Part shown: positions 43,492 to 48,362 of the stretch, piece by piece
Position numbering within the stretch: position 1 is the stretch's first letter
How the letters are laid out: every line of letters begins with the position of its first letter
Assembly (NCBI GenBank): GCA_903821635.1
Contig: CAIJLV010000138.1
Location: 1-64,000, forward strand
Length of the DNA: 64,000 bases
Reading direction: 5' to 3'
Source of the DNA: an uncultured Verrucomicrobiota bacterium
Lineage (GTDB): Bacteria; Verrucomicrobiota; Verrucomicrobiia; Limisphaerales; UBA9464
Made by a program: the position numbers and the translations under genes
Notes under the pieces: model-generated
The model's input: only the letters and a program-made list of their open reading frames with translations
What the model was told of the DNA's origin: nothing
Databases searched by the model: none

Positions 43492-44463
43492 TCAGGGGCC
43501 GGGGTTTTCTCCGCCGGGCGACCGGCTTGATTCCAAAGCGATTCGCAAGGCCCGGGCCGCCGCCAAAGCCTCCCGGGCGGCCGCGACCGTGGCTGGAGTC
43601 GGGGGGGCTGAAAAGTTGAGACCCGGGGCCGAAAGCTCCTCGGGATCGCCGAGCCCGGTGGCGCGGTATTGCCGGAGGCGTTCGAGGATCAGATCCCGAA
43701 TTTCTGACGCGTTGCCGACGCCGTGAAAGCAACCGACGTGGAGTGAATGGCTAGCTCGGGGATGGCCCGGTTGACCGCCCCCGCCGCCGGCCGATTCGAC
43801 CCGAAGGTCGGCCAGCCCGAGCCACCGTTGGATGGGGCCTTGGGTGACGGTGACCTGTTGCAGATTGGCGAAGCTCATCGTCATTTCCCCCACACTCCAA
43901 ACCCCGGACCGGATACGCAGGCTGCGATCGGTGACCATATACCAGCGTTGTTCGTAATCGAGTCGTAGCACCGTGTAACTGACGAACGCCTGCCCGAGGA
44001 AAAAGCCGAACCCCACGAACTCAAGGGCCAGTAGAACGGGCACCGCCCAAGGCGGAAGTTCACTGATCACGCGCGCAGCCTCGACGGAGAACTCATTCCT
44101 CGTGCGTGCTTGCCGCTTCTGGGAGCGCCGTTCGGCAGGGGGGCTGGAGGTGCCTTCGGAGGGTGCCGAAACGCTGCTGCCAGCGTTTGTGCTGGCCCCC
44201 AGCACGGGTGCCGACGCGGCGGCCGTGGAGCGCTCGCTCTGCCATTTTACCCGGCCTAGGTTGAGCACGCTCAGCCAGAAAATGACGCCCGCCAAAGCAA
44301 GCACTTGGCTGCCGGTCCAAACTGCCAGTCGCAACCGAAGGTAATTGGGCGCAGCGCGAAAAATCTGCACCGATTCAGGCTGGCCGGCGGGTGGTTGCGG
44401 CTCGGGTGGCACCTTCAGCAGTGCGAGGACGAGCTGTCGGCTTTTCTTAAGCATGCGGTTCAT
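43492..44463 (-). CDS. Membrane protein with bacterial PH domain (YdbT-like)
   Basis: This roughly 323-residue membrane protein has two hydrophobic helices near the N-terminus (LRLAVWTGSQVLALAGVIFW, and another at PPWAVPVLLALEFVGFGFFL). A bacterial PH (DUF304/bPH_2) domain follows, with the characteristic RSLRIRSGVWSVGEMTMSFA and NLQQVTV. Between the helices lies a low-complexity Ser/Arg linker. ATG 44463 overlaps the end of the upstream PH-domain gene by 17 bases; ATG 44454 is an alternative. Such paired PH membrane proteins (YdbS/YdbT type) occur widely, and their function is not well defined. Confidence 0.82.
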   Translation of the reverse strand: MNRMLKKSRQLVLALLKVPPEPQPPAGQPESVQIFRAAPNYLRLRLAVWTGSQVLALAGVIFWLSVLNLGRVKWQSERSTAAASAPVLGASTNAGSSVSAPSEGTSSPPAERRSQKRQARTRNEFSVEAARVISELPPWAVPVLLALEFVGFGFFLGQAFVSYTVLRLDYEQRWYMVTDRSLRIRSGVWSVGEMTMSFANLQQVTVTQGPIQRWLGLADLRVESAGGGGGQPGHPRASHSLHVGCFHGVGNASEIRDLILERLRQYRATGLGDPEELSAPGLNFSAPPTPATVAAAREALAAARALRIALESSRSPGGENPGP

Positions 44464-45034
44464 CCGGAGAAGCAGTTGGACGGTCGCCCCAAGCGGCCCG
44501 CACGGCGCGCAGTTCGACGGCGAGCTCACGCAGAGCGACGGCCAGTTCATCGGTGACCTCGGCTGGCGGAACTGGGGGTGGGCTGGTGGCGGTGGAAACC
44601 GGGTTGATGCCGCGCATTTTGGAGTAAAGGAAGTCGCGGACGGATTCGAACTCCTTGATCCCTTCGAGGGTCATTTCCGCGGCCGCGTTGCCGCTGGCGG
44701 TCTGGATCATGATGCGGGCGAGGCCAAGCCAGCGTTCCACCACATTGGACTGGAGGTGGATGTCTTGGATGCGGGCGTAGTTGAGCACGATCTGGCGGCG
44801 CCAGAGCACGCCCCAGCTCATGGAGACCCCTTCTTCGGTGAAGCGGTAACGCAGCGTGCGATAACGGAAGTAAAAGTAAGGCAGCAGCACGGGGGCCGCC
44901 GGAAGGAGGACGAGCCCGTTGAGCAGGTAATACGTCCATAGGCTCCGGTGGGGACGTTCGAGTTGCTGGATCGCGGCCTCGTCGCAGTGGGGCTTCACGG
45001 AGGCAAGCTGGCTCCGGTCGCCGTCCAAAGGCAA
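44447..45034 (-). CDS. Membrane protein with bacterial PH domain (YdbS-like)
   Basis: This 195-residue protein has one long hydrophobic hairpin (LWTYYLLNGLVLLPAAPVLL) followed by a PH domain: the RYRFTEEGVSMSWGVLWRRQ strand pair, YARIQDIHLQSNVVERWLGL, and a final strand with a helix. The C-terminal 50 residues are Pro-rich, then helical (RELAVELRAVRAA). It overlaps the downstream PH-domain gene and forms a two-gene operon. Confidence 0.85.
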   Translation of the reverse strand: MPLDGDRSQLASVKPHCDEAAIQQLERPHRSLWTYYLLNGLVLLPAAPVLLPYFYFRYRTLRYRFTEEGVSMSWGVLWRRQIVLNYARIQDIHLQSNVVERWLGLARIMIQTASGNAAAEMTLEGIKEFESVRDFLYSKMRGINPVSTATSPPPVPPAEVTDELAVALRELAVELRAVRAAWGDRPTASPDEPHA

Positions 45035-45115: not shown

Positions 45116-46294
45116 ATGATCTTTAATACGTTTTCCTACTTTCTGCTGTTCCTGTTGCCGGCGGCAGTCCTGTTCCGCTGCGTCTCCCCGAACTGGCGAG
45201 CGCCGCTGCTGGGGCTTTCCGGCGCGGCTTTCTATATTTTCTTTTCGCTCACCGCCGTCGGCGGCGTGGCCGGAGCTTGCTGCTTGGCCGTGTTTCTCTG
45301 GGAAGCGCTTTTCAGCCGGCTTTACCGCCGCGGTTCGGTGTGGTGCGTGGTGGGCATCGTCCAAGCCTTGGTCGTCTTGTTGATCTTCAAATACTGGAAT
45401 TTCCTCGTCCGGGTGATCCCTGGTCTGCCGGAAAACTGGCACTGGAGTGGGGCGTTTCTGCCGCTCGGAATCTCATTTTTTACCTTCGAATTCATCCATT
45501 TTGCGCGCGATCGCCGGCTCGGGAAAGCAGAGGCGGGGGGCTTCTGGGAATACTTCGCGTTCATCCTGTTCTTTCCCACCATGGTGGCTGGCCCCATCAA
45601 GCGGTATCAGGACTTCTTGCCAGCGCTGCGAAATCCCTCCCCAGACTGGGCCCGGGATTGGGAACGGGGGCTGACGCGGATTCTGGCCGGTTTGGTGAAG
45701 AAGTTTGCCATCGCCGACGTGCTGACGGCCTTCACTGGGCATCTAAACGGGGCTGACATCATGCAGGCGGAACGCTGGGTGTTGCCGTTGTGGATCTTGG
45801 CTTATGGCTTCCAGATTTACGCCGATTTTTCGGCCTACTCCGACCTTGCCATTGGATCGGCGAGATTGTTTGGGCTGCCCGTAAAGGAGAATTTCGATTG
45901 GCCCATTCTGCAAACCAACATCGCTGAGTTCTGGAGCCATTGGCACATGTCATTGACCCGTTGGCTAACGGACTACGTGTTCATTCCACTGGGCGGATCG
46001 CGGGTGCCGCTGCCGCGGGTCTACCTGAATGTCGTCGCCACCCTGCTCATCAGCGGCTTGTGGCACGGGGCGGGGCTGAACTTTGTCGTGTGGGGTTTGT
46101 GGCATGGTGTGGCCCTCGCAATCCATCGGTGGTGGTCCCACCGAGGCCCCAAGTCAGAGGCGCCCCCGGGAAAGCTCCGGCTGATCGGGGCGTGGACGCT
46201 GACCTTTCTTTGCGTCAACTTAGGCTGGGTCTGGTTTGCCATGGATATTTCCACCGCCATGCTGTTCTTACGGCGACTTTTTTGGGGCGCATGA
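45116..46294 (+). CDS. MBOAT-family O-acyltransferase (AlgI/DltB-like)
   Basis: The 392-residue polytopic enzyme moves acyl groups across the inner membrane onto an envelope polymer. It has the AlgI signature PTMVAGPIKRYQDFLPA, then FWSHWHMSLTRWLTDYVFIP, and the catalytic His in SGLWHGAGLNFVVWGLWHG. About ten hydrophobic segments are visible. ATG 45116 begins the first helix (MIFNTFSYFLLFLLPAAVLF). Its stop overlaps the start of a 61-aa microprotein gene (ATGA). The acceptor polymer is unknown. The gene set (MBOAT, microprotein, SGNH, deacetylase) suggests acylation of an exopolysaccharide or similar glycan. Confidence 0.95.
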   Translation: MIFNTFSYFLLFLLPAAVLFRCVSPNWRAPLLGLSGAAFYIFFSLTAVGGVAGACCLAVFLWEALFSRLYRRGSVWCVVGIVQALVVLLIFKYWNFLVRVIPGLPENWHWSGAFLPLGISFFTFEFIHFARDRRLGKAEAGGFWEYFAFILFFPTMVAGPIKRYQDFLPALRNPSPDWARDWERGLTRILAGLVKKFAIADVLTAFTGHLNGADIMQAERWVLPLWILAYGFQIYADFSAYSDLAIGSARLFGLPVKENFDWPILQTNIAEFWSHWHMSLTRWLTDYVFIPLGGSRVPLPRVYLNVVATLLISGLWHGAGLNFVVWGLWHGVALAIHRWWSHRGPKSEAPPGKLRLIGAWTLTFLCVNLGWVWFAMDISTAMLFLRRLFWGA

Positions 46295-46476
46295 GGCACT
46301 GGTTCCAACAATTCAAGTGGTGGGTCGAGTTTCTGGCAGGCGAAACCGATGAGCCCCCAACCGGCTTGCCTCAGCGTGGCCGCTGGGCTCTGAGGGCGCT
46401 TTGGTGGGCGCTGCTAGCGGTCGTTGTCGCGGTCTTTTGCGGCCAGTCGTCGAAGTTCATCTACATCGATTTTTGA
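46291..46476 (+). CDS. DltX/DUF5989-like membrane microprotein of the MBOAT system
   Basis: The 61-residue product has an amphipathic N-terminus (MRHWFQQFKWWVEFLAG), one transmembrane helix (about residues 35-52, LRALWWALLAVVVAVFCG) and the extreme C-terminal motif KFIYIDF. DltX (next to DltB) and DUF5989 proteins (next to AlgI-like MBOATs) are small one-helix proteins ending in a similar F-I/V-Y-x-x-F motif. The Tyr of that motif has been proposed to carry the acyl group from the MBOAT to the SGNH enzyme. Its start overlaps the MBOAT stop, and the SGNH gene starts three bases after its stop. Confidence 0.85.
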   Translation: MRHWFQQFKWWVEFLAGETDEPPTGLPQRGRWALRALWWALLAVVVAVFCGQSSKFIYIDF

Positions 46477-46479
46477 CCC

Positions 46480-47451
46480 GTGACCACCCGGCGACAGTTT
46501 CTTACATCCGTGGCCCTCGCCGCCGGGCTTTTGCTCGCGGCCAATGTCGGGATTCGCTGGATGGCCCGAAATTCCAACCCGCGGCAACTGCTGCGGCAGA
46601 TTTCGCAGGGGACTTCGAATCAGGTTTTTGCCGTGGGAAATTCCGTGATGGCGGCGGGTTTTGACGCGGCGGCCTTCACTGCCAAGGCAGCGGCTGCCGG
46701 CGAGCCGTTGACGGCCTTCAATGCGGGGCTGGGCGCGACCGGACCGATCCAGCACCTGCTGATTACCCGAGCCATCCTCCGCGCTCACCCGGAGGCCCAA
46801 AGCATTGTCTATGGCTTCTTTGACTTCATGCTCACTCAGCCGGTTCAGGAAGATTGGCGACTCCTGTTCGGCAATAACGCGATGGTCTTCTACACCGAGC
46901 CCGCCATCGCGGCCCGCCATGAAACTTCGAGTGCGTTCGGCCGGTGGGCGTTTCAAGTAGTCGGTGGGATTCCCATGTTTGCCGAGCGCGGCGCGATCTG
47001 GGCGCGGGTCGAACAATTGCGGCGCGATTTGGGCCAACTGGGCCTGCCGCCCGCGGCGGTGAATCGTTTTGGTCGGGTGGAAGATTTTTCCCCGGTTGAA
47101 AATACCACCGAAGGCTCAAGGCGGGTGCGCACGGTTGAGAATGTCGCGAGCGACGTCCCGCTCGCTTCACCGGTGGTTGAGCTGCTGGGACAAGCCCGCG
47201 AACGAAACGTTAAAGTTTGGGTCGTTTCGGTCCCGATGCCAGCGGCGCATCGTAAGCACTACGCTTCGCCGGAATGGCAGGCCTATTTTACCCTGCTGCG
47301 CGGAAAATTGGCCGCCCACGGGGCCGAGCTGATTGATGCCAGCGATTGGGTGGCTGACGATGCCTTGTTCATGGACGCGCTCCATTTGGGGCCGGAGGGA
47401 GCAATTCGATTCAGCCTCCGACTTGCCGAAACAATCGGCGCCCACCGATGA
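46480..47451 (+). CDS. SGNH-hydrolase-like protein (DltD/AlgJ-type partner of the MBOAT)
   Basis: The 323-residue protein is anchored by an N-terminal helix (FLTSVALAAGLLLAANVGIR). It contains SGNH blocks: FAVGNSVMAAGFDA with the likely nucleophilic Ser (about residue 53), FNAGLGATGPIQH (Gly/Asn blocks), and a C-terminal DALHLGPEG with the Asp-x-x-His pair. It would transfer the acyl group to the polymer in the periplasm. The start is GTG at 46480, three bases after the microprotein stop. A PIG-L deacetylase gene follows after 53 bases. Confidence 0.85.
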   Translation: MTTRRQFLTSVALAAGLLLAANVGIRWMARNSNPRQLLRQISQGTSNQVFAVGNSVMAAGFDAAAFTAKAAAAGEPLTAFNAGLGATGPIQHLLITRAILRAHPEAQSIVYGFFDFMLTQPVQEDWRLLFGNNAMVFYTEPAIAARHETSSAFGRWAFQVVGGIPMFAERGAIWARVEQLRRDLGQLGLPPAAVNRFGRVEDFSPVENTTEGSRRVRTVENVASDVPLASPVVELLGQARERNVKVWVVSVPMPAAHRKHYASPEWQAYFTLLRGKLAAHGAELIDASDWVADDALFMDALHLGPEGAIRFSLRLAETIGAHR

Positions 47452-47504: not shown

Positions 47505-48362
47505 ATGAATCCCTACGCAACGCTCGTTTCCGAATACGCCCGGTTCTTCCGCGAAGGCAAAGATTATCCACTGGGCGGGTTTGCCCCGGCTCCCAATCCT
47601 CCGCTGCCCGTGGGCGCGCCCAACGCGCTCATCTTTTCGCCGCATCCCGACGACGAATGCATCATCGGGGCGTTACCGTTGCGGCTCCGGCGGGAAGCCG
47701 GGTGGAACGTCATCAATGTTGCGGTCACTCAGGGTAGCGCCAAGGCCCGGCAGGCCGAGCGCTTGGCTGAATTGACCGAAGCGTGCAGGTATATTGGTTT
47801 TGGTTTGCTTCAGACCGCGCCCGCCGGCTTGGAAAAGGTGACGCCTAAGTGTCGGGCGGAAGAGCCGGTTGTGTGGTGCCGCATGGTGCAAGTGATTGCT
47901 GATATTTTGGCAGCCGAGCAGCCCCGGGCGATTTTCTTCCCGCATGAAGTGGACTGGAATGGCACCCACATCGGCGTGCATTTCCTCGTGCTGGATGCCT
48001 TGGCGTCGCTCGGTTCCCAGCTGACGACTTATCTGGTGGAGACGGAGTATTGGGGCCAGATGCCGCGGCCCAATCTCATGGTGGAAGTCGGCGAGCAGGA
48101 CTTGATTGATCAAGTGACCGGCACCTCGTTCCACGTCGGTGAGGTGCGGCGCAATCCCTTCCACCTGCTTTTACCCGCTTGGATGCAGGATAACGTTCGC
48201 CGGGGCGGGGAACTGGTGGGGGGCCAAGGGGGAGCAGCCCCTAATTTCGGGTTCGCGACCCTTTACCGCCTCCAAGTGTGGCGCGACGGGCGGGTGCAGG
48301 AAGTTCAAGCGGGCGGGCGAAATCTGGGCGTGGCCGAAAATCCGGCAGGTCTGTTTGCGTAG
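47505..48362 (+). CDS. PIG-L family (LmbE-like) deacetylase
   Basis: The 285-residue metal-dependent deacetylase has the zinc motif FSPHPDDE (about residues 45-52) and the later HIGVH pair (about 155-159). Members remove acetyl groups from N-acetylglucosamine-type sugars. Co-orientation with the MBOAT-SGNH genes suggests work on the same glycan or its precursor, as an inference. It lacks a signal peptide, so it should be cytosolic. Confidence 0.9.
   Translation: MNPYATLVSEYARFFREGKDYPLGGFAPAPNPPLPVGAPNALIFSPHPDDECIIGALPLRLRREAGWNVINVAVTQGSAKARQAERLAELTEACRYIGFGLLQTAPAGLEKVTPKCRAEEPVVWCRMVQVIADILAAEQPRAIFFPHEVDWNGTHIGVHFLVLDALASLGSQLTTYLVETEYWGQMPRPNLMVEVGEQDLIDQVTGTSFHVGEVRRNPFHLLLPAWMQDNVRRGGELVGGQGGAAPNFGFATLYRLQVWRDGRVQEVQAGGRNLGVAENPAGLFA

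Follow-up and report, generated by a model that had tools for sequence, protein, structure and literature searches.

Here we describe a three-gene cassette, comprising an MBOAT acyltransferase, a single-helix microprotein and a membrane-anchored SGNH acyltransferase, that very probably acts as a three-subunit transmembrane acyl relay onto an envelope polysaccharide. It lies within the window, the whole 64,000-nt stretch of DNA that was analysed, which comes from a member of the Verrucomicrobiota. Judged by sequence, the microprotein is the detached form of an acyl-shuttle tail, which in other AlgI/PatA-type MBOATs is fused to the enzyme itself.

PatA uses acetyl-CoA to acetylate the Tyr in the FxYxxF hexapeptide at its own C-terminus, PatB uses the resulting acetyl-peptide, and DltB–DltX–DltD has been described as carrying out the same chemistry with the motif placed on a microprotein (PMC12148441). 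The same paper, from 2025, presents non-Dlt MBOAT/SGNH pathways as having no DltX-like microprotein (PMC12148441). Acyl-shuttle chemistry is thus already published, and as far as we have searched the literature, the new element here is a shuttle subunit encoded separately in a system other than Dlt. Those searches found no DltX-like protein in Verrucomicrobiota or Acidobacteriota, and a mention in the first description of the acyl shuttle, from 2023, is possible. The clade of split MBOATs from these two phyla is a counter-example to the published statement on non-Dlt pathways. By a narrow margin we favour the stronger view, which contradicts that statement, of a second, independent separation of the tail outside Dlt, in Gram-negative-type phyla and within an acyl-CoA-driven relay of three subunits.

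The cassette and its downstream neighbour are arranged as follows:

45116–46294, + strand: MBOAT acyltransferase (Pfam MBOAT), 392 aa, ATG at 45116, stop codon TGA at 46292–46294
46291–46476, + strand: microprotein, 61 aa, single helix, ATG at 46291, stop codon at 46474–46476, ending CGQSSKFIYIDF (FIYIDF)
46456–46473, + strand: acyl-shuttle hexapeptide F56-I-Y58-I-D-F61, placed by alignment and conservation counts
46480–47451, + strand: membrane-anchored SGNH acyltransferase, 323 aa, GTG start
47505–48362, + strand: PIG-L/LmbE deacetylase (Pfam PIG-L, 1e-11), downstream neighbour

The MBOAT and microprotein genes meet in an ATGA overlap, and 3 bases separate the microprotein from the SGNH gene; these coordinates, which we checked on the sequence, agree with the packing and the FIYIDF ending reported in the initial annotation.

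Scanning about 85,000 species genomes with an MBOAT alignment returned 51 loci, which include two contrasting sets. The close set (57–71% MBOAT identity) holds 22 complete loci besides the window, 20 of them distinct, and in every one an MBOAT of about 390 aa without a tail motif is followed by the microprotein and then the SGNH protein, whose gene comes directly after that of the microprotein in the window and in all 22 loci. Its members include Chthoniobacterales, Opitutia and Verrucomicrobium sp. BvORR106 among the Verrucomicrobiota, and Granulicella and Acidicapsa among the Acidobacteriota; within the same genus or family, the cassette is present in three genomes. In the distant set (43% identity or less), all 26 complete MBOATs carry FxYxxF, mostly as FIYFQF, fused at their own C-terminus. 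A wider count, in which the motif is fused in all complete fused loci, is consistent with this, and no complete split MBOAT has the shuttle motif at its C-terminus as PatA/AlgI-type enzymes do. Because the close MBOATs are tail-less and accompanied by the microprotein, whereas the distant ones carry the motif fused, the microprotein is the detached tail. MBOAT, microprotein and SGNH form a strict unit, and no conserved neighbours beyond the three genes were found around the window and the 22 loci. In a held-out test, searching further genomes with nothing but the microprotein profile recovered two more loci (L121 and L125), and these also had an MBOAT before and an SGNH gene after the microprotein. 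The module is rare and patchy, occurring in 4 of 150 genomes sampled from one Acidobacteriota family and in 4 of 286 sampled from one Verrucomicrobiota class. The closest fused MBOAT in the search, at 43% identity, comes from a Candidatus Rokuibacteriota locus (L040, 1520–2932) and makes a useful outgroup for locating where the tail became separate.

The window MBOAT scores above the Pfam MBOAT cut-off (105 bits, E 8e-30) and is a short form that lacks the C-terminal shuttle tail; it shares 57–71% identity with its 20 distinct tail-less relatives. Its predicted catalytic residues are His277 (WHMS) and His317 (WHG), which a sequence alignment matches to DltB His289 and His336, respectively, and both histidines are kept in all split loci. 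The conserved WHG histidine in an MBOAT fold that marks MBOAT–SGNH acyl-shuttle systems in general is therefore present, and the C-terminal FxYxxF motif of such systems is also present, on the microprotein. The split clade further shares with fused MBOATs a PLGG[SN]R-type motif, which reads PLGGSR in the window.

In the microprotein, a single segment is clearly hydrophobic, at about residues 31–51. The F-x-Y-x-x-F motif is invariant in 21 of 21 distinct microproteins, so that the conservation check proposed initially for the C-terminal motif was passed. Across the same 21 sequences the tail follows the consensus [CS]-G-Q-[ST]-S-[KR]-F-I-Y-I-D-F with few exceptions, and the invariant positions are F-6, Y-4 and F-1 of the motif together with F-13 and Q-10. 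Tyr58 is the predicted acyl carrier, a role shown for the corresponding Tyr of PatA and cited for that of DltX (PMC12148441). No Pfam or NCBIfam family matched the microprotein over its cut-off, and the microprotein profile matched nothing meaningful when searched against PDB sequences. The expectation that annotation would leave the protein unnamed was correct for Pfam and NCBIfam, neither of which has a model; the microprotein thus points to a protein family without one in either collection.

The third subunit was identified by fold. Its matches in Pfam were weak and below cut-off (DltD 3e-4, Lipase_GDSL_2 7e-3), and a sequence search against the PDB gave no match, but the AlphaFold2 (AF2) model (pLDDT 88.9) is a confident predicted SGNH fold, with an N-terminal helix at residues 4–29 that would suit a membrane anchor. 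Foldseek placed DltD as the best match, and the model also matches PatB (Z 13.3, tied with several esterases). Ser55, Asp299 and His302 are invariant in all 15 aligned sequences, which supplies the Ser and Asp-x-x-His of a partner SGNH protein, and Asn81 is nearly invariant.

These components closely resemble those of PatA/PatB, the peptidoglycan O-acetyltransferase of Gram-negatives, and of AlgI/AlgJ-type MBOAT–SGNH pairs: an MBOAT with a catalytic His, an FxYxxF hexapeptide and a separate Ser/Asp/His SGNH protein, with a PLGG[SN]R-type motif in the MBOAT and no adjacent carrier protein or ligase. The difference lies in the tail. PatA/AlgI-type enzymes have it fused to the MBOAT by way of two additional membrane helices (PMC12148441), whereas the present MBOAT stops at about 390 aa and a one-helix microprotein of its own provides the tail.

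The cassette also has the layout of a Dlt system, with a short MBOAT, a one-helix microprotein of its own ending in FxYxxF and a membrane-anchored SGNH protein whose nearest fold is DltD. We considered whether it could be a true but diverged Dlt branch that shares its split ancestry with Gram-positive Dlt and possibly uses an aminoacyl carrier encoded elsewhere. In the MBOAT tree, the split clade and DltB each form solid clades (100/100), and both fall, along with one fused Rokubacterial MBOAT, on the same side of a 99/85 branch; a single clade of split MBOATs plus DltB was neither supported nor rejected (p-AU 0.51), so both one and two origins of tail separation are possible. Pfam DltX is, moreover, the commonest weak match of the family's microproteins (4 of 19, best E 0.002; 1.8e-20 for a control DltX), which together with the DltD-like fold and the tree is what this reading has in its favour. 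By contrast, none of the three proteins passes as its Dlt counterpart. The MBOAT reaches 167.3 bits against the TIGR04091 (DltB equivalog) cut-off of 375, within the range of about 106–183 bits covered by other non-Dlt MBOATs, fused ones included. The window microprotein has no match to Pfam DltX (PF12459) at E ≤ 1, and the SGNH protein falls below the DltD cut-offs of both Pfam (20.6 versus 22.7 bits) and TIGR04092 (16 versus 150 bits). In profile comparisons, the microprotein matched fused tails with a probability of 93 across 32 columns (87 when the fused profile was built from four sequences) and DltX, also represented by four sequences, with a probability of 50 over 16 columns; on this evidence its tail appears closer to the fused AlgI/PatA-type tails than to DltX. 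The gene order also differs (MBOAT–microprotein–SGNH here, dltX-A-B-C-D in Dlt), no dltA or dltC was found adjoining any cassette, and the best DltA match in the source genome (87% complete) scored 124 bits against a cut-off of 560. The hexapeptide is FIYIDF here and FIYNEF in Dlt, and PLGGSR, present here, was not found in any of five DltB sequences. Given the failed DltB, DltX and DltD cut-offs, the lack of a DltA over cut-off and the retained PLGGSR, the cassette is, as far as sequence can tell, not a Dlt system, and we regard a diverged Dlt branch as unlikely. The DltX-like three-part mechanism proposed initially is supported, with a correction: the shuttle motif, both histidines and the SGNH partner are in place, and the microprotein would work like DltX but is by sequence closer to fused tails.

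For these comparisons, the DltB and DltX references came from plasmid records, since no DltB over cut-off turned up when the phylum around Allobaculum was searched. Plasmids of Lactobacillaceae, Enterococcus and Niallia carry dlt genes (L110–L114), and on one of them (L110) an ORF upstream of dltA, unannotated in the gene table, ends in FIYNEF as DltX does. The dlt genes of Gram-positives have also been reported in a few Gram-negatives, including Dickeya and Pectobacterium (cited in PMC5541007). The parallel with the present cassette is a Dlt-type system in Gram-negative cells; the difference is that those genes are described as the Gram-positive dlt genes themselves.

For the cassette as an AlgI/PatA-type relay with a separate shuttle subunit, we propose the following route. 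On the cytoplasmic side of the membrane, the MBOAT would accept an acyl group, which is most likely acetyl donated by acetyl-CoA, and, with the help of His317, would hand it to Tyr58 in the microprotein hexapeptide FIYIDF. The acyl-hexapeptide would then swing to the membrane-anchored SGNH protein, where Ser55, acting with Asp299 and His302, would accept the acyl group and esterify a hydroxyl of an envelope polysaccharide. Gene order, conservation, the motif, the catalytic residues, the separateness of the genes and the predicted SGNH fold anchor this scheme in the data; for this cassette, we infer the acyl-Tyr step, the acetyl-CoA donor, the formation of a complex and the polymer target. Acetyl-CoA is the probable donor because there is no conserved ligase or carrier neighbour, no DltA over cut-off was found and the PLGG[SN]R-type motif is kept, although the support that the PLGGSR difference from DltB lends to an acyl-CoA donor is only correlative. 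The genes neighbouring the cassette point to neither a donor nor a polymer.

The initial suggestion was to look for the C-terminal Tyr in the MBOAT tunnel near the WHG histidine. To that end we modelled with AF2 a read-through chain of L021, a locus whose microprotein shares the reading frame of the MBOAT stop, using an alignment of split and naturally fused MBOATs. The MBOAT core was predicted at pLDDT >90 and matches DltB best; the microprotein blocks reached 45–57, and its final 11 residues, at 39 and 29 by block, were unplaced, so that the model speaks neither for nor against the tunnel position. The microprotein might instead be merely a structural or assembly subunit, its motif docking onto the MBOAT and carrying no acyl group, and as late as 2024 a paper on DltB put forward a regulatory role for DltX (PMC11035591). 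However, the hexapeptide that is acylated on Tyr in PatA is invariant in the microprotein and missing from the MBOAT, so a purely structural subunit would leave the relay without a carrier; we consider this reading improbable, even more so than a Dlt origin.

Several observations indicate that the acyl-shuttle microprotein is encoded by a gene of its own. The ORF is kept in 20 further distinct loci from two phyla and changes mostly at synonymous sites (dS 0.42/dN 0.04 and dS 1.00/dN 0.10 in the closest pairs), which, with the invariant motif, argues that it did not arise by chance. Its likely starts lie at −4, −1, +1, +2, +4, +8 or +9 nt relative to the MBOAT stop and occupy all three frames with respect to the MBOAT (the start in L022 is ambiguous), as expected of a separate gene and not of the frameshifted end of a fused one. 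An annotation artefact, in which a fused MBOAT gene had been frameshifted or had decayed, could produce the overlap of the microprotein with the MBOAT stop, but conservation in 20 other distinct loci, with own starts and synonymous-biased change, leaves it a negligible chance, and the use of all three frames across the 21 loci rules it out.

The split cassette can be viewed as a natural experiment on the acyl-shuttle mechanism, in which a PatA/AlgI-type enzyme has apparently been cut just before its carrier tail and neither piece has been lost; this speaks for the hexapeptide tail as a discrete functional unit. With the cassette, the DltX-like layout reaches beyond Dlt, and its genetically separable carrier can be tested more readily than a fused tail.

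The genes flanking the cassette vary between loci. The sugar deacetylase that had been noted after the SGNH gene is indeed encoded there, at 47505–48362, but is not part of a conserved unit; it adjoins the cassette only in the window and in L017, a locus of the same genus, and we rejected it as a general fourth member. Upstream, on the − strand at 43492–45034, the window encodes two adjoining bPH_2 bacterial PH-domain membrane proteins, a pair that also adjoins the cassette in L018 and in no other locus.

Two further MBOATs of the source genome carry fused tails: one ends in FIYFTF and has a probable SGNH-type gene upstream (L001, G000:C170, 1087–2460), and the other ends in FIYFQF and has a probable SGNH-type gene downstream (L003, G000:C13, 997–2436). 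Because these two fused MBOATs lie beside SGNH-type genes and the split cassette is present as well, three or more acylation systems probably operate in the source genome. Atypical tails are found among other fused MBOATs (FLYAAF, FLYAVF and FLYGAY among L076, L094 and L104), and in L104 the final aromatic residue is a Tyr.
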